DNA of 34,553 nucleotides, taken from NCBI GenBank assembly GCA_011051685.1, contig DRKQ01000115.1, positions 1-34,553 on the forward strand, written 5' to 3'. The position numbers were made by a program, and so were the translations under genes. Origin of the DNA: Gammaproteobacteria bacterium (GTDB lineage: Bacteria > Pseudomonadota > Gammaproteobacteria > SZUA-152). The first letter of the stretch is position 1. Every line of letters begins with the position of its first letter. The notes under the pieces were generated by a model. It was not told the DNA's origin, did not search any database, and saw nothing but the letters and a program-made list of their open reading frames with translations. This document shows positions 7,535 to 30,957 of the stretch, one piece after another.

Positions 7535-8440
7535 TTAGTAACCGAAACGCTTGCGAAGGAATCGGTCGATCTTCAGGTTGATCTCATCAAAGGCACCAAT
7601 CTTTGCCTTGCTGCTCTTGGCGTACTTGAGGAGCTTGTCAATCTCTTCATAAAACGGCTCGTAATCAGATTCCTCTCCGTAACCCAAGGCGCTGGCGAGT
7701 TTAAGCTGGGTGCGTGCATTATCCAGCAGGGCTTTCAACTCCTTCTGCTGGGACGAGTTGCGGTTATTGGTTTCGAGCAGGCCTTTGGCCAACGCAAGCA
7801 TGTGCTCGGCGCGCAGTACCGGTAGCGGGATGGTGGTACGGGTAATCACCAAGGTGTCGGTGATGTTGTACAGCACATCCAGGGCGCTTTTCTTTTTGCC
7901 GTCGGCCAGCAAGGCTGCGGCATACTTCAGTGCTTCCGGATAGGTGCCCAGGGGAATGTTGGTAACTTGTATGTTGATTTCGCTGGCAAGTCCGGAAAGT
8001 ATCTGCCGTGCTTCCTGCAAGCGATTGTCATCGATCAATGACTTTACGGTCTTCACGGTTTTATTGACGGAGGCAATGTCGCCGTAAATATCATAGACCA
8101 CGGGCTTGACTGCGATCGGGGCCAATGAAAGTTCAGGATTGGCGGCAAGTACAATCTCCAGGTCACCGGTGGCGCTGGCGATATCTTTTATTGCCGCTTT
8201 CACGTCATCTTTTTGCAGGTTCTTGATGGCATCGATCACGTGATCCAGGGAACTCGCGGCTTCCTTGATAATGGTTTCCTCGATATCGCTGACCGCAGTT
8301 CGCCCTTCCTGTTGAACGCTCTTTTGTACCGATTTGACTTGTGCGTTGGGTTTATTGGCATTGTCTGCAAGACTGGCCTGGGGGATGACAAATCCCGTCA
8401 ACAGACCGGCGGCCAAAATGGGTATGATTTTTCTGTTCAT
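7535..8440 (-). CDS. YfdX-family periplasmic protein
   Basis: A 301-residue secreted protein. The signal peptide (IIPILAAGLLTGFVIPQASLA, residues 4-25) should be cleaved near SLADN. The mature part is all-helical, with YfdX-type segments: EAASSLDHVIDAIKNLQKDDVKAAIKDIASATGDLEIVLAANPELSLAPI, then a second half with YPEALKYAAALLADGKKKSALDVL and TRTTIPLPVLRAEHMLALAKGLL. A Shine-Dalgarno AGGAG precedes ATG 8440. E. coli YfdX belongs to an acid-stress-linked locus, but its biochemical role remains poorly defined, and here it stands alone rather than beside oxalate genes. A short palindrome upstream may be its operator. Confidence 0.85.
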   Translation of the reverse strand: MNRKIIPILAAGLLTGFVIPQASLADNANKPNAQVKSVQKSVQQEGRTAVSDIEETIIKEAASSLDHVIDAIKNLQKDDVKAAIKDIASATGDLEIVLAANPELSLAPIAVKPVVYDIYGDIASVNKTVKTVKSLIDDNRLQEARQILSGLASEINIQVTNIPLGTYPEALKYAAALLADGKKKSALDVLYNITDTLVITRTTIPLPVLRAEHMLALAKGLLETNNRNSSQQKELKALLDNARTQLKLASALGYGEESDYEPFYEEIDKLLKYAKSSKAKIGAFDEINLKIDRFLRKRFGY

Positions 8441-13923: not shown

Positions 13924-14847
13924 ATGGGTGGAAAATGGCCGGGCAAGGGATGGTGGCTGGGCGGGCTGTTGTGCCTGCTGGCCGGGTCGGCAGGGGCGAA
14001 CGGGACCACGGCGTCTGGTCACAGCGATGCCTCTGTGCGTCCCCTGCAATTTGGTTTGCTGCCCTATGTCAGTACCCGGAAATTATTCACCTATTACCGC
14101 CCGCTGCGTGATTATCTCGTTCGAATCCTGGGGCGGCCGGTGCATTTGAGTACTGCACCGGATTTCTCCACTTATCTCCAGCGGGCCGGTGAGGGTGAAT
14201 ATGATCTGTATCACACCGCGCCACATTTTGCCGCCCTGGCTGAGGCCCGGTACGGTTACCGGCGGGTCAGTCGTCTGCTGCGCGACCTGGATGGGAGTGT
14301 GGTGGTGGCCCGTGACGGGCCCATTCAGAGTGCGGCGGATTTACGCGGACGTACTCTGGCGACGCCTGACAGCTTGGCGATAATTTCCTTTCTGGGTGAG
14401 CGATGGCTGCGGGATAACGGTCTGCGTCCTGGCATGGATGTCGAGGTTCAGCATCTGGCCTCACACAATTCGGCGATTCTCGCCGTGGCCCGGGGTGAGG
14501 CGGAGGCGGCCGTGACCTCGGCGGCCGTATTCGAGAATATGCCGGCGCAGATCAGCCGGCGCTTGCGTGTTCTGGCCAGTACCCGAGCGGTACCCCATAT
14601 GATGTTCATGGCGGGATCCCGCCTGTCCGATGAGGAATATCGAACTCTGCGTCAGGCCTTGTTGGCCTATACCGCCGAGGGCGCAGGCCGGGACTTTTTT
14701 GCGTTGACCGGTTATGGCGATATGGTACCGATTCGCGATGAGGACATGCGCCGCCTGCAGCCTTTCGTCAGAATACTGAACGACCACCTGCGTCAGGTTT
14801 CGCAAACACCGAGTAGCAAACGGCCAACGACCTGGGGGCATCACTGA
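13924..14847 (+). CDS. PhnD-like periplasmic substrate-binding protein
   Basis: A 307-residue periplasmic binding protein of the phosphate/phosphite/phosphonate family. The signal peptide spans about residues 1-25 (WLGGLLCLLAGSAGA). The mature part begins RPLQFGLLPYVSTRKLFTYYRPLRDYL, then has DLYHTAPHFAALAEARYGY, DLRGRTLATPDSLAIISFL and SHNSAILAVARGEAEAAVTSAAVFE, the canonical PhnD pattern. No ABC permease or ATPase gene is near. Instead its stop overlaps the start of a membrane histidine kinase, as in TorT/TorS and AioX/AioS, where a binding protein presents a ligand to the kinase. The mature chain has no cysteine, unlike arsenite-binding AioX, which needs one. The ligand is therefore unknown but could be a phosphorus oxyanion or another anion. 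Confidence 0.87.
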   Translation: MGGKWPGKGWWLGGLLCLLAGSAGANGTTASGHSDASVRPLQFGLLPYVSTRKLFTYYRPLRDYLVRILGRPVHLSTAPDFSTYLQRAGEGEYDLYHTAPHFAALAEARYGYRRVSRLLRDLDGSVVVARDGPIQSAADLRGRTLATPDSLAIISFLGERWLRDNGLRPGMDVEVQHLASHNSAILAVARGEAEAAVTSAAVFENMPAQISRRLRVLASTRAVPHMMFMAGSRLSDEEYRTLRQALLAYTAEGAGRDFFALTGYGDMVPIRDEDMRRLQPFVRILNDHLRQVSQTPSSKRPTTWGHH

Positions 14848-16730
14848 TGTCGAGCCGCAAATACGGGATTCGATCCCTGCGTTTCAAGCTGGCGCTGACT
14901 TCCACCCTGGTGGAGGTGGTCATGCTGGCGATCCTGATTGCCAACAGCGCCGCTATTGCCACAGAGGCATTGGAGAAGCAGACTCGCTACCGGGTGCAGG
15001 AAATCATTCCCCTGTTGAATGCCAGTCTCGCCAGTCCCCTGGTGGAGCGCGATTACGCCACCCTGGATGAAATATTGGCACAGGTGGTGCGCAAGGGAGG
15101 CATCGAATATCTCGCCGTCACCGATGAAGAGGGCCGATTGGTGGCAAACCAGGGTGAACGGCCAGAAGCGTATGGTCAGGAAGCTGAGACAGGTTTCAGC
15201 GATATCAATGACGTTGCGGGTTTTGGGCAAATCGAGGTACCAATCACTCTGGTGGGACAGACCGTGGGCAGGCTTCATCTGAGTATCAATACGGGTTTTT
15301 TACAGGCCACCATCAGCACGCTGGAACATGAGGGCCTGCTGATTGCCGGTGGCGAAGTGGTGATCACCTTCATTCTGCTGGCCCTGCTGGGGATGTTGCT
15401 GACACGGAACCTGGCCATTCTCGCCAGTGCTGCGCGAAGTATGACCGGTGGTGACCTCAGGGCGCGGGTGAACATCGATAGCAGGGATGAAATCGGCGCC
15501 ACGGCCCGTGCCTTCAACGCCATGGCCGCGCGTCTGGACGCCTCGTACAACTCACTCAAACGCAGCGAGCGTCGATATCAGACCCTGGCGGAGGTGTCAC
15601 CGGTGGGCATTTTCAATACCGATGCCGAGGGCCAGTGTATATACGTCAATGAACGTTATAGTGACATCACCGGCCTGCCTCAGGAAAGGTGTTTTGGTTT
15701 CGGTTGGAGTGAAACCCTGCATCCGGATGACCGCGAATTGGTGATGCGGGAATGGGAATACTGCGCCGCATCCGGGATTCCCTATGTGGGGGAATACCGG
15801 ATCTGCAATGCGCGGAGTGAAGTTGTGTGGGTTTATGTGCAGGCGGTGAAGTCCGATGTCATGGATGGTGGCTATGTGGGCACCGTCACCGATATCACCC
15901 GGCTCAAGGCGGTGGAGGAGGAGCTGGCTCGGCATCGTGATTCACTGGAAGGTCTGGTAAAGGCGCGCACCCGGGAACTGGAGGCGGCCCAGGACAAATT
16001 GTTGCGGCAGGAACGCCTTGCCACGCTTGGCCAGCTGACCGCTACGGTGAGTCATGAATTACGCAACCCGCTGGGGGTGATCAGCAATGCCGTGTATTTT
16101 CTCAAACGAAAATGTCAGGGTGCTGACGATGAATTGGATGCCAAGGTTGACCAATACCTGGAGATGATCAAACGGGAAATAGCGGCCGCGGATCGCATCA
16201 TTAGCGATTTACTGGCCACATCGCGCACCAAAGATCCTGTGGTGCAGTGGGTAAATCTGGATGAGTTGCTAGAGGCCATTGTCAGCGCCGGAGTTTTTCC
16301 CGACCATATTCAATGGCGCTATGATCGTGAACCCAGGCCTTTCATGATGCGCGCAGATCCCACCCAGCTGACCCAGGTCCTGCGCAACCTGATCGGCAAT
16401 GCCATTCAGGCCATCACCGCCAGTGGTAACGGACAAGGCGTGGTATCCCTGGTGGCCAGGGAAGAGAATGGCCATTATCAATTGTGTGTGTGTGACAGCG
16501 GCCCCGGCGTCGAACTGGCGGCGAGAAAGAAAATCTTTGAGCCGTTGTATACCACCAGGGCCAAGGGCAATGGGCTGGGGCTGTGGATTTCCCGGGAGAT
16601 TATCCGTGTGCATGGTGGAGAATTGTCTTGCGCTGAACATAATTGTGACAGTAACTTGTCGGGTGCGGCATTTATGCTGGTTTTGCCACGGGGTAATGCC
16701 AGGGAAAAAGCTCTGGCTGAATCGGCCTAG
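14847..16730 (+). CDS. Membrane sensor histidine kinase (HAMP-PAS-HisKA-HATPase)
   Basis: A 627-residue sensor kinase. TM1 spans about residues 18-38, a periplasmic sensor domain 39-164, TM2 165-187, HAMP about 188-238 and a PAS domain 241-352 (ETLHPDDRELVMREWEY, YRICNARSEVVWVYVQAVK). A short coiled coil leads to HisKA with VSHELRNPLG, the phospho-accepting residue being H403. The catalytic domain has NLIGNAIQA (514-522, N box), DSGPG (550-554, G1) and GNGLGL (574-579, G2), so it should be active. Its ATG overlaps the TGA of the binding-protein gene by one base (TGATG), indicating translational coupling. It probably reads the state of that binding protein. Its partner is likely the double-receiver protein downstream. 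Confidence 0.93.
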   Translation: MSSRKYGIRSLRFKLALTSTLVEVVMLAILIANSAAIATEALEKQTRYRVQEIIPLLNASLASPLVERDYATLDEILAQVVRKGGIEYLAVTDEEGRLVANQGERPEAYGQEAETGFSDINDVAGFGQIEVPITLVGQTVGRLHLSINTGFLQATISTLEHEGLLIAGGEVVITFILLALLGMLLTRNLAILASAARSMTGGDLRARVNIDSRDEIGATARAFNAMAARLDASYNSLKRSERRYQTLAEVSPVGIFNTDAEGQCIYVNERYSDITGLPQERCFGFGWSETLHPDDRELVMREWEYCAASGIPYVGEYRICNARSEVVWVYVQAVKSDVMDGGYVGTVTDITRLKAVEEELARHRDSLEGLVKARTRELEAAQDKLLRQERLATLGQLTATVSHELRNPLGVISNAVYFLKRKCQGADDELDAKVDQYLEMIKREIAAADRIISDLLATSRTKDPVVQWVNLDELLEAIVSAGVFPDHIQWRYDREPRPFMMRADPTQLTQVLRNLIGNAIQAITASGNGQGVVSLVAREENGHYQLCVCDSGPGVELAARKKIFEPLYTTRAKGNGLGLWISREIIRVHGGELSCAEHNCDSNLSGAAFMLVLPRGNAREKALAESA

Positions 16731-16757
16731 TGAGTGTTATGCCTGGGCATTGCTGAC

Positions 16758-16777
16758 AAACAGCAAACTGTTTTTTT
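16758..16777 (+). terminator. Possible rho-independent terminator after the kinase gene
   Basis: A short hairpin, AAACAG-caaa-CTGTTT (16758-16773), is followed by a T-run reaching 16777. The stem is only 6 base pairs and AT-rich, so termination may be partial. It would separate the kinase transcript from the response-regulator gene, which has its own candidate promoter site. Confidence 0.45.
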
Positions 16778-16904
16778 ATTGAGTGCAATACTTCTTTTGC
16801 AGACCTTTGCCTGTTGATGGAAAATGGAGAGCAGTTAAACCAATTGGTACAATGTGTTGAGCTTGCATGTCTGGTCATTACGTTATTTAATCACGTCCCA
16901 TAAT

Positions 16905-16918
16905 TTGATTGATATCAA
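16905..16918 (+). promoter_or_regulatory. FNR/ANR-type box upstream of the double-receiver gene
   Basis: TTGATTGATATCAA fits the FNR consensus TTGAT-N4-ATCAA exactly and is symmetric one base further out on each side. Its centre is about 69 bases upstream of the preferred start at 16981. A -10-like TATAAG (16930-16935) lies just downstream, although the spacing is not a clean -41.5 arrangement. The match is visible; oxygen control is inferred. Confidence 0.6.
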
Positions 16919-16980
16919 ACACAGTCAACTATAAGTTACACAACACATACTTTTGTGTTCGTCGTATGGGAGGAAGTCAG

Positions 16981-17751
16981 TTGGAAGCGGTAACAAAAAG
17001 AATCCTGGTGGTTGACGATGAAGTCAATATGCGAACAACCCTTGCCGATATTCTCGGCGACGAAGGTTATGTGATTGACACTGCGGTAGATGGTTTGAGC
17101 GCTGTGCAGATGTGTGAAAATCAGGACTACGATGTGGTGTTGCTGGACGTACGCATGCCGGGCATCGACGGTGTGGAAACCTTTCGCCGCATTCGCCGCC
17201 ACAGTGAGGCCGTGCGTGTGGTAATGATGAGTGCCTACAGCATGGACGAGTTGAAACGCGCGGCCTTGGAGGAAGGCGCCATTGCCTTTTTGTCCAAACC
17301 CCTGGATATCGATAACGTTGTAGGTTTGATCCAAGATGTGCGGGAAACCGCGATCTTGGTGGTGGGGGATGACGCTGACATCGCAGGGCCTGTTGAGGCA
17401 TCTCTCAAGCAGCAAGGATATTGGGTAAAAGTCACTTCATCACCTCACGATGCCATGGAACTTGCGGAGCAGATTCACTTCGACATTATTCTTATCGATA
17501 CCCAGTTGCCGGTAATGAATGGTCTGGAACTGTACCTGGCAATCAAGAAAATTACGCCTAGTTCCGTGGCGATCATGATCAGTGGCATGGAGGATGAGTT
17601 TGACCGGCTGGCCAGGGAGGCCGTCAAGCAAACGGCTTACACCATTATTCACAAACCATTGAATCTGGATAACCTGTTTGCCTTGTTGAAACGCATTACC
17701 GGTCAGCGCATTTCCAACGCCATCAGTAAACCGGCGCTCGATCCGCATTAG
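16981..17751 (+). CDS. Double-receiver response regulator without output domain
   Basis: A 256-residue protein made of two CheY-like receiver domains in tandem. The first (residues 6-120) has acidic pair D12-D13, phospho-acceptor D56 in VVLLDVRMPG, S84 and K106. The second (about 124-240) has D130-D131, acceptor D173 in IILIDTQLPVMNG and K225 in IIHKPLNLD. Both look phosphorylatable. No DNA-binding, enzymatic or other output domain follows. I chose TTG 16981 because GGGAGGAAG lies directly upstream at good spacing; a longer frame from TTG 16909 would begin inside the FNR box, and ATG 16966 lacks a ribosome binding site. It likely takes phosphate from the kinase encoded upstream and acts by protein contact. 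Confidence 0.87.
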   Translation: MEAVTKRILVVDDEVNMRTTLADILGDEGYVIDTAVDGLSAVQMCENQDYDVVLLDVRMPGIDGVETFRRIRRHSEAVRVVMMSAYSMDELKRAALEEGAIAFLSKPLDIDNVVGLIQDVRETAILVVGDDADIAGPVEASLKQQGYWVKVTSSPHDAMELAEQIHFDIILIDTQLPVMNGLELYLAIKKITPSSVAIMISGMEDEFDRLAREAVKQTAYTIIHKPLNLDNLFALLKRITGQRISNAISKPALDPH

Positions 17752-17777
17752 TATAACAGGCATTAGTGTAGTTCGTT

Positions 17778-20366
17778 TTATCTGGTGGCGTTGCCGGTAA
17801 AAGGCTGGATGCTGGAAAGGTGGGGATTGCGTTCTTTGAGCCACGTCCAAAATGCGGCCGCAGGAAGTGGTTTTGCGTAGAGATAACCCTGGGCAATGTC
17901 ACAGCGCAGTATCTGTAACAGGTCTCTGGTTTCCTTGTCTTCCACACCCTCGGCCACAACAGTCAGCCCTAGGTTGTGGGCAAGGTCAATGGTGGAGCGG
18001 ACGATCACCGAATCGTTTTCATCATTGTCCATGTCGGTGACAAAGGACTTGTCGATTTTCAGCTCATTGACCGGCAGGCGCTTGAGATAGCCCAGTGAAG
18101 AGAAGCCGGTGCCGAAGTCATCCACGGATATTCGCACTCCCATATTGTCCAGCTGGCTGAGAATGTCCACGGCCCGTTCCGGGTTGGCCATCATAGCGTT
18201 TTCGGTGATTTCCAGGCTGAGGTGTCTGGCGGGAAATTTATTGCGCGCCAGTAATGTTTTTACTTGATTGAGCAGCCGGTCATCCTCGAGATTTTGTGCC
18301 GACAGGTTGACCGACACGGTAAGGTCGATACCGGCATCCAGCCATTGCTTGGTTTGGGTCACCGCAGTGTTCAGCACCCAGATGGCGACATCGTGGATCA
18401 GCCCGGTTTGCTCTGCCAGCATGATGACCTCTTCAGGAGCAATAAACCCGTATTCCGGATGTTCCCAGCGTAACAGTGCCTCCATACCGGTGACAGTATC
18501 GCTGGCCAGGGTGATTTGTGGTTGATAATAGACATCGAGTCCGTCTTGCTTGAGCGCCTTGCGCAGGTCGGCCATGAGTCCCAGGCGCTGCAGGCTGTGA
18601 TTGTCCTTGTCCGGGTCATATACCGCCAGCTTGGATTTGTTGTTTTTGGCCTGGTACATGGCGATGTCGGCATGCTGGATCATCACCCGGGCATCGGCAC
18701 CATGTTGGGGATACACCGTGATACCAATACTGGCGCTGGTGTAGAGTTGACGGTTTTCCAGATTGAAAGGATGCGCCAGGGCAAGAGCAATCTTCTCGGC
18801 AATCTTGATGGCGTGTATTTCGTTGGCGGTGGGCAGAAGAATGGCAAACTCGTCTCCACCGAGGCGGGCAATGGTGTCGGCATTGCGCAACAGGCTGGAC
18901 AGACGTCGTCCCACCTCAATAAGCAGACGATCGCCGGCAGGATGCCCCAGGGTGTCGTTGACCTCCTTGAAATGGTCGAGGTCGAGCATCAACAGGGCCA
19001 GGGAGCCGTTGTTGCGCATTGCCTCCTTGATTGCCTGGGCCAGGTTGTCGGTGAGCCGGTTGCGATTACCCAGATTGGTCAGCGAGTCATGCAGGGCGTG
19101 GTATTCCAGGGCGGTTTGCCGGGCCTGTACCTGTTTACGCATGGTGCTGAAGGCGTCTACCAGGTTTTTGGTTTCGGTGGTTCGGTAATTTTTCAGTTCA
19201 GTTCCCTGAAGATTTTCCGATTCGTTTTTCAGGGCCAGGGCGATGGAGGCCACGGGGCGGAGAATCATCCGTTCCAAGGCGTAATAGCCGACAAGGATCA
19301 GGCTGAGACACAGAGCAGTGAACATGAGGAGGGTCTGGGTTTGACTCTCCGCCACATTGGTCAGTATGGACAGATCATTGTTGGCGGAATCCTCAATACT
19401 TTTATCCAGGTTGATCAGAGTACTCCAAACGATTTCCATGCGCGGTTTGATGGTGGTGCCGATGAGATTGGCATCGGCGCGCCAGTTGCCAGAATGGTGA
19501 ATACGCTTGATTTCAGCAAAGACCGTGAACCAAGCATCAGAGGCGTTGATCAGTTCTTCCAGCGAGGCACTTGCCTGAAATCCCAGCTCTTCCTGATCAT
19601 CGAATTTTTGCAGACGGTTGAGTAACCCCCGCAGCGCTTCGTACTGGATTATGACATCCTGTTCCTGCAGCGGCAGGGCGGGTTCATCGAAGGAGCCGAG
19701 GCGATTGGCCAGGTACATACGGAAATTGGAAATCATCTGCGTCCAGAGATGCCGGGCCTGAACAAAGGTCTGGTAGACCTCCTGGTTGCGGAAGGTCACG
19801 GGTTCTTCGAGTATTTCATTAATTGCCAGATCCGCGGCGGTATAAAAGATACTGTGATTGGGCAGCATTTCGTCCCGGGCCAGGGCAAGTGCAGGGTATT
19901 GGCGGCTAATGTCAGTGCGTACCTGGATCAGCTCATTGACGGCCTTGTCCAGCTTCGCCAGGGTGTCTTTGAGGATATTGATATTCTTTTGATACCCCCG
20001 CTGCCGCACCCAGGGGTGATCGAACAGCTGGTCGGCCTGCTGACGGGCGTCCAATAAGGCCTGCTGAATGCGCTCACGTTCAGCCTGACTACCGGGATCA
20101 AGCAAAAAGGTTGCCAGGGATTCCCGGGTTGTCCACACGGCATCGCGCACCATGCGGCTGCGCTCCAGTAACTGGTTACGTGCGGCAATATTTTGGGTGG
20201 TGAGCTCTCGCGCCTTTTGTAGCTGGATGTAGCCCAGATAGGCGCTCATCAGCACCACGATGGCCACGAGTCCCGCGACAACAGCATAACGACCGCGCAG
20301 ACTGTTTAAAAGCTTGTAATACAATACCTTGCACCATTGACAGGTTTTCGCCCCCTGTGAAAACAC
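17778..20366 (-). CDS. Membrane GGDEF-EAL c-di-GMP enzyme with HAMP domain
   Basis: An 862-residue inner-membrane protein. TM1 is at about 28-46, a large helical periplasmic sensor domain spans 47-345, TM2 is at 346-364 and HAMP-like sequence follows to about 418. The GGDEF domain has LGGDEFAILL (GGDEF at 503-507) and an inhibitory I-site RNAD (494-497) five residues before it. The EAL domain starts at GMEALLRWEHP (E629-L631) and retains ENAM, DDFGTGFSSLGYL and KIDKSFV, so both synthesis and hydrolysis of c-di-GMP look possible. The start is GTG 20366; an in-frame stop (20370-20372) lies just before it. It is convergent with the double-receiver gene (26-base gap). The periplasmic ligand is unknown. 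Confidence 0.93.
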   Translation of the reverse strand: MFSQGAKTCQWCKVLYYKLLNSLRGRYAVVAGLVAIVVLMSAYLGYIQLQKARELTTQNIAARNQLLERSRMVRDAVWTTRESLATFLLDPGSQAERERIQQALLDARQQADQLFDHPWVRQRGYQKNINILKDTLAKLDKAVNELIQVRTDISRQYPALALARDEMLPNHSIFYTAADLAINEILEEPVTFRNQEVYQTFVQARHLWTQMISNFRMYLANRLGSFDEPALPLQEQDVIIQYEALRGLLNRLQKFDDQEELGFQASASLEELINASDAWFTVFAEIKRIHHSGNWRADANLIGTTIKPRMEIVWSTLINLDKSIEDSANNDLSILTNVAESQTQTLLMFTALCLSLILVGYYALERMILRPVASIALALKNESENLQGTELKNYRTTETKNLVDAFSTMRKQVQARQTALEYHALHDSLTNLGNRNRLTDNLAQAIKEAMRNNGSLALLMLDLDHFKEVNDTLGHPAGDRLLIEVGRRLSSLLRNADTIARLGGDEFAILLPTANEIHAIKIAEKIALALAHPFNLENRQLYTSASIGITVYPQHGADARVMIQHADIAMYQAKNNKSKLAVYDPDKDNHSLQRLGLMADLRKALKQDGLDVYYQPQITLASDTVTGMEALLRWEHPEYGFIAPEEVIMLAEQTGLIHDVAIWVLNTAVTQTKQWLDAGIDLTVSVNLSAQNLEDDRLLNQVKTLLARNKFPARHLSLEITENAMMANPERAVDILSQLDNMGVRISVDDFGTGFSSLGYLKRLPVNELKIDKSFVTDMDNDENDSVIVRSTIDLAHNLGLTVVAEGVEDKETRDLLQILRCDIAQGYLYAKPLPAAAFWTWLKERNPHLSSIQPFTGNATR

Positions 20367-26739: not shown

Positions 26740-28260
26740 TCACTCAAGCGAGCCGGCGCAGACAATCTGATTACGTCCCTGGGCCTTAGCGGCATACAGG
26801 GCATGGTCCGCGGACTTGAGCAACTGGTCGGGGCGGCCGTCCAGGCCGGGCAGGCAACTTGCGACGCCCTGAGTCACAGTCAAGTGCTTGGCGATGGGTG
26901 AAAAATTATGGGGAATCTCGATGGCCGCCAGTTCCTGTTTGACCAGCTGCGCCACCTTGAGGGCGCCGGCTTCATCGGTATCGGGGAGAATGATCACAAA
27001 CTCTTCGCCGCCGTAACGCGCCAAAAGATCCGTGGGCCGACGGATATTGCGTTGCAAGAACTGGGCAAAGCGGCGCAGACACTGATCGCCGGCAATGTGC
27101 CCATAGTTATCGTTATATTTCTTGAAATAGTCGATATCCAGCAGAATTACAGACAGAGGTTTTTGCGTACGAATACCCTGACGCCACTCAAGATCGATGA
27201 CCCGGTTGTACTCACGCCGGTTGGGTATCTCCGTGAGGGGATCCATGTGCGCGACTTCATCGAGCAGATCATTGGCGCGTTTCAGGCGCAGCAGGGTTCG
27301 TATGCGGGCCCTGAGTACCGCGACGGATGTGTCTTTGTGAATAAAGTCTGCGGCCCCCTTCTCAAAGGCACTGATCTCGGTTTGTTCGTCGCCTTGATTG
27401 CTGAGCAGAATAATGGGAATGATCAATCCCTGATTGTGCTCACTGAGCATTTCGCAGATTGCCATGCCGTTGGCCTCATTGTCGAGCAGCACCAGATCCG
27501 GCGGAATGGCTGACAAACAGATATCGATGGCTGTCTTGCTGTCTTCACAAAAGTGTAATTCGTAATCCTCTAGAGTGGACTGGAGATGCTGCCGCAGATC
27601 GGGGTCGGGGCTGACCAGCAAAATGTGCTCGCGGGGCTGCAGGGTACAAATGGCATCACTTTCGGCGCTAATGTTGACGCTGTCGCCAAAAATGAACAGT
27701 GTTAGCAATTGCTGGCTGGGCAGGCCCAAGAGCTTGTTGCCCTCGGCGGTGATCAGGGCAGGGATGTTGCGGGAGAAATCCCCGTGCTCCCATTGGTTTT
27801 GCCAATGTTGCAGAATCTCGTGTGTCTGCTGGCCGATGCCGGGGCGGGGAATGTTCAGGCTGTGGAGGATCTCATCGATTATCGCGGGATCGCCGATATC
27901 CCGGCCATCCACCCACAGGGCACGATAAAACCGGCTGCGTAGGATATCCGCCTGATGAGGGGCTTGTTGCAGCACTTCGGCAAGGATCTCATTGGCCAGT
28001 CGGGTATTGGGCCTGCCCGGGGGGACGTTGATGATGGTATCCGGTGCCAGTATTTTTACCTTGGCCACTTCCGTTTTCAGTTCAGTGGCGGCATTCACAT
28101 CCTGCGTATCGAAATGAACCTGTGGGGCATGCTCGATACACTGCCAGGCCACATGAGGAAGAGAGTTCCGCTCCTGCAGGTGTTCATGCAGCGCATAGCA
28201 AAACGGACAATTGAGATCCGCGTAGACCGTCAGTCGATTGTTACGGCTGCTATAAGGCAT
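26740..28260 (-). CDS. DsbA-like domain fused to receiver and GGDEF diguanylate cyclase
   Basis: A 506-residue cytoplasmic protein from ATG 28260 with three parts. Residues 10-195 are a DsbA/FrnE-like thioredoxin domain: LTVYADLNCPFCYALHEHL with CxxC at 18-21, a helical insertion, and a cis-proline-type loop NIPALITAEGNKLLGLP. Residues 212-325 are a receiver (HILLVSPDPDLR, phospho-acceptor D260 in DLVLLDNEANG, K309). Residues 335-500 are a GGDEF domain with ARYGGEEFVII (417-421) and an I-site RPTD (408-411), so an active, product-inhibited diguanylate cyclase is expected. No signal peptide is seen. Upstream in-frame GTG 28302 or TTG 28377 could extend it; none has a good ribosome binding site. 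It follows a PDZ gene. Confidence 0.85.
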   Translation of the reverse strand: MPYSSRNNRLTVYADLNCPFCYALHEHLQERNSLPHVAWQCIEHAPQVHFDTQDVNAATELKTEVAKVKILAPDTIINVPPGRPNTRLANEILAEVLQQAPHQADILRSRFYRALWVDGRDIGDPAIIDEILHSLNIPRPGIGQQTHEILQHWQNQWEHGDFSRNIPALITAEGNKLLGLPSQQLLTLFIFGDSVNISAESDAICTLQPREHILLVSPDPDLRQHLQSTLEDYELHFCEDSKTAIDICLSAIPPDLVLLDNEANGMAICEMLSEHNQGLIIPIILLSNQGDEQTEISAFEKGAADFIHKDTSVAVLRARIRTLLRLKRANDLLDEVAHMDPLTEIPNRREYNRVIDLEWRQGIRTQKPLSVILLDIDYFKKYNDNYGHIAGDQCLRRFAQFLQRNIRRPTDLLARYGGEEFVIILPDTDEAGALKVAQLVKQELAAIEIPHNFSPIAKHLTVTQGVASCLPGLDGRPDQLLKSADHALYAAKAQGRNQIVCAGSLE

Positions 28261-28366
28261 GGGTAGGGGTATGAATACGGGTATGTAAAGGGCATTACTC
28301 ACCTTACTATCAACGTCATTGGTTTGGAAATAGTTGCTAGGGATTATCAGACCGGGACAGCGGTTT

Positions 28367-29265: not shown

Positions 29266-30957
29266 TCAGTACCACTGACCTTCGCGGATCCGATTGATGG
29301 CCGCCGCCAGCTCGTGCAGCCGCGGCAGGGCCAGGTCGCCCACCTTGTAGGGGCTGAAGAGGTCCAGGCCCTGTTTACGGGCGTCGGCCATCACCCGTTG
29401 CAGGCCGTCGATGAGGCCGTCGCCGCTGGCGGCATAATGGCGCGCGTAATAGAGGATCATCAGGCCGATGCTGCGGGTCTGGCCGGCATCGATGAGTTGC
29501 TCCACCTGGGAGAGGTCGATGCGGTGCTCGCCGTACAAAATGTCGTCCACCGCGTAGGTGTTGATCTTCACCTCGCGATTGGCGCGGGAGGGATCGAGCA
29601 CCTCGGGCCCGGGGCGGCGCGTGCTGCGCCCGCCAAAAACAGGTGTGCTGCCGGGCAGGCGTTCGATGGGCCTTGCCAGGGCCCGGGCCTTGTCGGTCAC
29701 GTCGTAGGGCTCGTAGGCGTCGAGCATGATCACCGTGTCGGCCACGTCGAAGTAATCCCCGGAACCGCCCATGACGATTACCGAGGATACGCCGCATTGC
29801 TCGTACAGATCCCGCACCCGATGAATCAGCGGGGTGATGGGTTCCTTGTCGTCCGCCACCAGGGCCTGCATGCGTTCGTCGCGGATCATGAAATTGGTGG
29901 CCGAGGTGTCCTCGTCGATGAGCAGCAGGGAGGTGCCGCATTCCAGGGCCTCGATGATGTTGGCGGCCTGGGAGGTGGAGCCGCTGGCGTTCTCGGTGGT
30001 GAAGGCCACGGTGTCGCGGCCAAAAGGCAGGTGGTCGATGAAGGGGCTGATGTTGACCCGGGAGATGGCCCGGCCGTCTTCGGCGCGTACCTTCACCGCA
30101 TTGTCCACGGTGGCCACCCGCTCGCGGCCGTCGCCGGGGATGTGGTCGTACACGCCGCGCTCCAGGGCGTGCAACAGGGTGGACTTGCCGTGAAAGCCGC
30201 CGCCGACGATGAGGGTGACGCCGTGGCCGATGCCCAGCCCGCGCACCTCGCCGGCATTGGGCAGGGTCACGGTGCGCGCCAGGGACTCCGGGGCCTTGAA
30301 GGGCAGGGCGTCCTTTTGCAGGGGCCGGTCGTCCACGCCGCTGGCCCGCGGCAGTACGGCGCCGTCGGCGACAAAGGCCACCAGCCCGGCCTCGGCCAGC
30401 CAGCGGCGCAGGGCGTCCTGATCCTCCACGCTGCGCACGTGGCGTTCCACCTGGGCGGCGTCGAGGTTGGCATGGTACAGCGCGGCATCGACGACCTTGG
30501 GCAGCTCGTCGCAGAGCATGGCCACCGCCTCGCGCCCGGCGGCGCGGCGCCCCTGGGCCGGCAGCCCCAGGGTGAAGCGCGCCTCGATGACATCCTTACG
30601 CACGTGCACCGCGTTGCGTACCAGCACCTGCTGGCCGCTGGTGGAAATGGCGAATTCCCCGCTGCCGCCGCTGCCGCGATGGCCCTTGACGAAACGCCGG
30701 ATGGCGTCGCGGATGGCGCGGGCGATGAAGTCCTCCAGCGCCACGCGGCGCACCTCGCCTTGCCACAGCGCAGCGGGAAAGCCGCTTTTTTCTGTGTCCA
30801 CCGTGACGCTGATGCGCGAGGGGGTGGCGAAGGGGTCGCCCTGCACATGATCGATGCTCAGGTCGAAGGCCGGGTAGCGGTAGCTCCCGGCGATGGCCTT
30901 GTAGGCCTTGTAGCCCTTGCCATCCAGGGCCAGCAGTGTGTTGCGAAGGCGTTCCAT
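29266..30957 (-). CDS. ABC-class ATPase of the PF09818/COG3044 family
   Basis: A 563-residue soluble protein with one ATPase domain of the ABC type but no transporter partner. The N-terminus (LLALDGKGYKAYKAIAGSYRY, FDLSIDHVQGDPFATPSRI) is characteristic of the family. The Walker A motif GGGFHGKST is at 252-260, a signature-like ASGSTSQAANIIEALE at 324-339, and Walker B with SLLLIDEDTSATNFMIRD around 343-360. The last third contains VIVMGGSGDYFDVADTVIMLDAY. The cellular role of this widespread family is not well established; an RNA- or nucleotide-related role has been proposed for related ATPases. The gene is GC-rich with no visible Shine-Dalgarno before ATG 30957. The PDZ gene follows after 29 bases. 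Confidence 0.93.
   Translation of the reverse strand: MERLRNTLLALDGKGYKAYKAIAGSYRYPAFDLSIDHVQGDPFATPSRISVTVDTEKSGFPAALWQGEVRRVALEDFIARAIRDAIRRFVKGHRGSGGSGEFAISTSGQQVLVRNAVHVRKDVIEARFTLGLPAQGRRAAGREAVAMLCDELPKVVDAALYHANLDAAQVERHVRSVEDQDALRRWLAEAGLVAFVADGAVLPRASGVDDRPLQKDALPFKAPESLARTVTLPNAGEVRGLGIGHGVTLIVGGGFHGKSTLLHALERGVYDHIPGDGRERVATVDNAVKVRAEDGRAISRVNISPFIDHLPFGRDTVAFTTENASGSTSQAANIIEALECGTSLLLIDEDTSATNFMIRDERMQALVADDKEPITPLIHRVRDLYEQCGVSSVIVMGGSGDYFDVADTVIMLDAYEPYDVTDKARALARPIERLPGSTPVFGGRSTRRPGPEVLDPSRANREVKINTYAVDDILYGEHRIDLSQVEQLIDAGQTRSIGLMILYYARHYAASGDGLIDGLQRVMADARKQGLDLFSPYKVGDLALPRLHELAAAINRIREGQWY

Follow-up and report, generated by a model that had tools for sequence, protein, structure and literature searches.

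A rare DsbA-like, pseudo-receiver and GGDEF domain fusion in Gammaproteobacteria: a candidate thiol-controlled diguanylate cyclase of the cytoplasm

Introduction

Among the closest described counterparts of the protein reported here are diguanylate cyclases whose input is an Asp-phosphorylated receiver, namely PleD (REC-PsR-GGDEF) and WspR and DgcR (REC-GGDEF). In DgcR, the rearrangement of the Rec dimer and of the receiver packing moves the stalk and is thereby relayed to the GGDEF domain (PMC8041772), and in PleD the signal from the input receiver passes through a pseudo-receiver to reach the GGDEF domain (PMC12632262). Several pseudo-receiver regulators are redox-controlled; the atypical response regulators of the RitR and HP1021 type are pseudo-receiver proteins under thiol chemistry, with a transcription-factor output and a reactive Cys located in the receiver or the linker (PMC12632262). 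How pseudo-receivers switch without phosphorylation is an open question according to the same 2025 review (PMC12632262).

The control of c-di-GMP by cysteine chemistry is also documented. It is cytosolic in the case of the E. coli diguanylate cyclase DgcZ, whose CZB domain binds zinc and senses HOCl through a Zn-bound Cys (PMC8262984), and disulfide-dependent in the case of HmsC/HmsD and of the CSS-domain protein PdeC, which sense the periplasm (PMC8846402). In Leptospirillum, tfp8, the gene of a cytoplasmic thiol-disulfide oxidoreductase, adjoins a diguanylate cyclase gene, dgc (PMC7084401); the two genes are separate and the cyclase has a transmembrane helix. A 2022 census of c-di-GMP inputs makes no mention of thioredoxin (PMC8846402), and the full-text literature that we searched, outside of which most subscription journals lie, yielded no description of a thioredoxin/DsbA-diguanylate cyclase fusion.

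The present analysis deals with such a fusion, encoded in a window of 34,553 nucleotides from a gammaproteobacterial contig. It shares the GGDEF domain, the I-site and the receiver stalk with PleD, WspR and DgcR, but a DsbA-like domain occupies the place of their phosphorylated input receiver, and its only receiver is degenerate. Compared with DgcZ, its sensor domain and the corresponding chemistry are unrelated; compared with HmsC/HmsD and PdeC, the putative sensor is cytoplasmic and fused to the cyclase; and compared with RitR and HP1021, the cysteine is borne by a thioredoxin-fold domain.

Results and Discussion

Domain organisation

The gene (26740..28260, minus strand) runs from an ATG at 28260 to a stop at 26740 and encodes 506 residues in which Pfam recognises three domains: DSBA (PF01323, residues 10-137, 27.2 bits for a cut-off of 25.6, or 30.5 bits when the domain is scored alone), Response_reg (PF00072, residues 213-321, 46 bits, above its cut-off) and GGDEF (PF00990, residues 337-498, E 4e-51). 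The DsbA/FrnE-like thioredoxin-fold domain, recognised by PF01323 and hhalign, extends over residues 8-195 (27676..28239, minus strand). It contains the CPFC active-site motif at residues 18-21 (28198..28209, minus strand) and, at residues 166-167 (27760..27765, minus strand), the Ile-cisPro loop expected of the family, from which the cis configuration is deduced, so that the DsbA/FrnE-like nature assigned to the N-terminus by an earlier note on this DNA is borne out. The receiver-like domain follows at residues 211-325 (27286..27630, minus strand) and the GGDEF domain at residues 337-499 (26764..27252, minus strand). The latter bears the GGEEF signature at residues 417-421 (26998..27012, minus strand), the I-site RxxD, here RPTD, at residues 408-411 (27028..27039, minus strand), whose R and D are found in all 23 aligned members of the family, and the metal and GTP residues D375, N383 and D392, which are invariant in the same alignment. 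Judged by these residues, the cyclase and I-site motifs are intact, as had been read from the window sequence at the outset.

Distribution of the fusion

With the N-terminal part as query, the fusion was retrieved from 2/24 genomes of the window's family and from 1/8 genomes of a second family; in the order of the third family, 23 of 41 genomes give a match, and these all belong to one genus. No further fusion was detected among 398 genomes sampled from the phylum, nor in two 369-genome draws of the class, which largely overlap and through which rare members may have slipped. Twenty genomes of these three gammaproteobacterial families supplied the 23 full-length proteins of the alignment, some members cut off by contig ends having been left out, and the set includes members no more than 34-59% identical to the window protein. 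That the whole architecture and its motif are conserved in 23 proteins excludes a chance origin: by its sequence the DsbA-REC-GGDEF arrangement is a real and conserved architecture rather than a one-off, and the rarity claimed for it in the earlier note is supported by its detection in three families only and by the lack of a further case in the wider samples. The trees of the GGDEF and DsbA parts, which contain several very long branches, do not separate one fusion event from two. The member of one genome (G286) has a frame change within its DsbA part.

The searches with other queries or in other collections returned no additional fusion. Nothing but ordinary GGDEF and REC-GGDEF proteins came out of the whole-protein search in a collection of genome contigs, since the search patterns were driven by the conserved GGDEF stretches, and none of the 26 that were inspected has a CxxC-bearing N-terminal part. 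With the DsbA domain as query, plasmids gave a single distant archaeal match of the DsbA family and viral contigs gave no match. The assembly of the window, made of 308 contigs, contains two other PF01323 genes, one for a DsbA-like protein whose N-terminus resembles a signal peptide, the other for a FrnE-like protein that lacks such a stretch. A second fusion candidate, an open frame of 491 aa in G262, turned out to be a stand-alone FrnE-like protein lying in a long open frame.

Cellular compartment

No signal peptide is apparent in the window protein. The exact start of its gene is uncertain: no clear ribosome-binding site precedes the ATG at 28260, and a GTG lies in frame 5' of it, at 28302. 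The relatives start 7-9 residues ahead of the first strand (MINNHLTIYAD in G013 and MKKENKVTVYAD in G080), and in G013 a ribosome-binding site (CGGAG) is found immediately 5' of that ATG. These short N-termini and this ribosome-binding site agree with the cytoplasmic location already proposed for the protein, a placement that holds whatever the start codon since the output of the GGDEF domain needs the cytoplasm.

A conserved thiol-disulfide motif as the probable input

The earlier note had named the loss of the CxxC motif among homologues as an observation that would speak against its redox reading; the motif proves to be conserved, since Cys18 is present in all 23 members and Cys21 in 20 of them. 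The cis-Pro position, Pro167, is also occupied by Pro in 23/23 proteins, Tyr13, Asp15 and Trp116 are invariant, and the DsbA module possesses a signature of its own in the fusion family, D[LF]NCPFCYAL[HN]E. The remaining three members, L116, L127 and L134, have Ser at the second position and are thus natural CPFS variants with a single active-site Cys.

The reading that we favour, at roughly even chances, is that of a cytoplasmic cyclase in which a thiol/disulfide input of the DsbA/FrnE type drives the GGDEF domain through the pseudo-receiver. The invariant Cys, the cis-Pro and the chemistry of the family lead us to consider a thiol reaction as the signal, and redox control of the cyclase thus appears likely. 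Two points count against such a switch: the three CPFS members indicate that some of these proteins can do without an internal disulfide, and a conserved Cys and Pro would also be expected of an active oxidoreductase with no regulatory effect on the cyclase. The existence of the CPFS members suggests that the first Cys, perhaps via a mixed disulfide, matters more than the internal disulfide.

The invariance of Cys18, whereas Cys21 can be Ser, also fits the main rival of this thiol-switch model, in which the DsbA-like domain would be a sensor of glutathione or of another small thiol or conjugate, bound in a pocket resembling that of FrnE, GST kappa or the isomerases, with Cys18 aiding the binding or forming a mixed disulfide. 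The thioredoxin-fold homology of the domain is based on profiles. PF01323 matches all 8 sampled members, and the profile of eight fusion-type sensor domains aligns in hhalign with that of four stand-alone FrnE-like proteins at a probability of 98.8% and an E of 6e-17, the match covering the first 135 positions, which start at the CPFC and include the helical part. Against the solved structures, a profile search ranks DsbA first (3bci, E 7e-5), followed by FrnE at an E of 0.02, which is not significant alone. The weak matches to GST kappa and 2-hydroxychromene-2-carboxylate isomerase chains that accompany DsbA and FrnE, and that would suit a binding pocket, are not significant (E about 0.3), and most members retain both Cys and the cis-Pro, as oxidoreductases do. 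We therefore regard the sensing of a bound small molecule as rather unlikely. The structure predictions computed from the single sequence, for the whole protein and for the domain, are of low confidence (mean pLDDT 36 and 38).

The kinship with FrnE is that of a fold family. The FrnE and FrnE-like proteins of the cytoplasmic DsbA family (PF01323) share with the fusion the CP[F/W/Y]C motif, the cis-Pro and the cytoplasmic location, but they are stand-alone enzymes, whereas the fusion's domain is the N-terminal module of a cyclase. The C-terminal CxxxxC of many FrnE members is absent from the N-terminal domain of the window protein, as it is from some accepted FrnE proteins (PMC8945050).

Could the domain simply be an active thiol-disulfide oxidoreductase with a client protein as its substrate, the GGDEF domain controlling or localising it or merely making c-di-GMP alongside? 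The GG[D/E]EF signature is intact in 20 of the 23 members, the exceptions being L134 (RGGSF), L135 (GGGSF) and L136 (KGGMF), each of them the second copy of a genome whose other copy is intact. All three keep the RxxD motif, and two of them keep the catalytic set of CxxC and cis-Pro, as an oxidoreductase independent of the cyclase would. In most members, however, the cyclase signature is kept as well as the Cys motif, and the receiver-GGDEF stalk contains invariant residues, which points to the regulation of the cyclase and makes the client-protein reading improbable. With their degenerate GGDEF and intact RxxD motifs, L134, L135 and L136 are possibly c-di-GMP effectors.

Loss of the phosphorylation site in the receiver

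The five residues of the phosphorylation site (acidic pair, Asp, Ser/Thr and Lys) read S-P-D-S-K in the window protein, Ser217-Pro218 (27607..27612, minus strand) replacing the acidic Asp-Asp pair in the alignment. The complete site is found in none of the 23 members of the fusion family versus 25 of 26 ordinary REC-GGDEF controls scored with the same script, these controls being proteins of the whole-protein search, some of them from the window's own genome. The phospho-acceptor position, Asp260 in the window protein (27481..27483, minus strand), is occupied by Asn in 16/23 members, and the switch Lys is replaced by Arg in 11/23; L121 and L124 have the site nearest to completeness, D-N-D-S-K. 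A pseudo-receiver being defined as a receiver in which one or more of the five are missing (PMC12632262), all 23 members contain one, and the middle domain is on this sequence definition a pseudo-receiver. The earlier note had suggested redox control in addition to phosphorylation, a view at odds with these counts; the cyclase would probably be switched in the cell by thiol chemistry rather than by phosphorylation.

An ordinary response-regulator cyclase, phosphorylated and provided with an accessory domain, would account for the retention of Asp260, Ser287 and Lys309 in the window protein and for a PF00072 score above the cut-off. The replacement of the Mg-binding acidic pair by Ser-Pro, the lack of a complete site throughout the family and the nature of the neighbouring genes, lpd and a PDZ protein gene, which do not encode kinases, make this explanation very improbable; some residual phosphorylation is still conceivable in L121 and L124 or, through Asp260, in the window protein. 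A lineage-specific fusion whose DsbA part would be a passenger or a decaying domain, as its restriction to three families and its non-detection in the other sampled genomes might suggest, is the least credible explanation, for the DsbA domain accounts for 20 of the invariant positions, the receiver for 8 and the GGDEF part for 35, and Cys18 and Pro167 are kept among members whose identity to the window protein is only 34-59%.

Proposed mechanism

In the thiol-switch model that we propose, the nucleophilic Cys18 would undergo a reversible reaction with an oxidant of the cell, with a disulfide of low molecular weight or with a redox partner, Cys21 acting as the resolving Cys in most members. The resulting change of the DsbA domain would be relayed via the non-phosphorylatable receiver, which would behave as a passive, dimer-forming adaptor, and would run along the C-terminal receiver helix and the stalk, thereby setting whether the two GGDEF domains meet and make c-di-GMP. 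The binding of c-di-GMP to the RxxD site would result in feedback inhibition. The reactivity of the Cys as the signal and its transmission through the pseudo-receiver are what we infer; the model makes no prediction as to whether oxidation would turn the cyclase on or off.

The fusion family thus offers a conserved case in which a probable thiol-active input is joined directly to a pseudo-receiver, with an output that is easily assayed. If the model is true, it adds to the c-di-GMP inputs a type of sensor missing from the 2022 census (PMC8846402), and it links the thiol state of the cytoplasm to the c-di-GMP lifestyle switch.

Genomic neighbourhood

In the window and in G013, the nearest relative, the cyclase gene adjoins sucA-sucB-lpd and is transcribed towards them. 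Upstream lies the gene of a PDZ membrane protein (PF13180; 28367..29236, minus strand), to which the earlier note had attributed a possible role in localising the cyclase. This suggestion finds no support in the relatives: the gap between the two genes, 106 bp in the window, reaches 1124 bp in G013 (contig L146), and no PDZ match was found beside the cyclase gene in the inspected relatives of the other two families (f154 and f58). The PDZ protein is probably not part of the cyclase system, and the more likely partner of its gene is that of a PF09818 ABC-class ATPase (29266-30957, minus strand), located 30 bp upstream of it. On L146, a small open frame starting MDISGASSVSAGQ (about 8220-8392, minus strand) lies between the PDZ and cyclase genes; it was not seen in the window.

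A different arrangement is found in G103, where a stand-alone relative of the DsbA-like domain (213 residues, DLNCPFCFALNE) overlaps a PAS-HisKA-HATPase-REC gene that is followed, 5 bp further, by a REC-HD-GYP gene. This row (L154:3768-7152) is a possible thiol-linked c-di-GMP phosphodiesterase pathway and, in this one genome, connects the DsbA-like domain, here unfused, with the turnover of c-di-GMP. It leads to a broader and more tentative proposal, to which we give somewhat less than even chances: the DsbA-type thioredoxin-fold domain would have become a thiol sensor that serves c-di-GMP signalling in the cytoplasm, both as a part of the pseudo-receiver cyclase, where it would have replaced Asp phosphorylation as the input, and as a partner encoded separately beside a hybrid kinase and an HD-GYP phosphodiesterase.

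Elsewhere in the window, at 14847-20366, the gene of a HAMP-bearing PAS histidine kinase lies close to that of a protein with two receivers and to an oppositely oriented gene for a GGDEF-EAL protein; together they form another c-di-GMP signalling locus.
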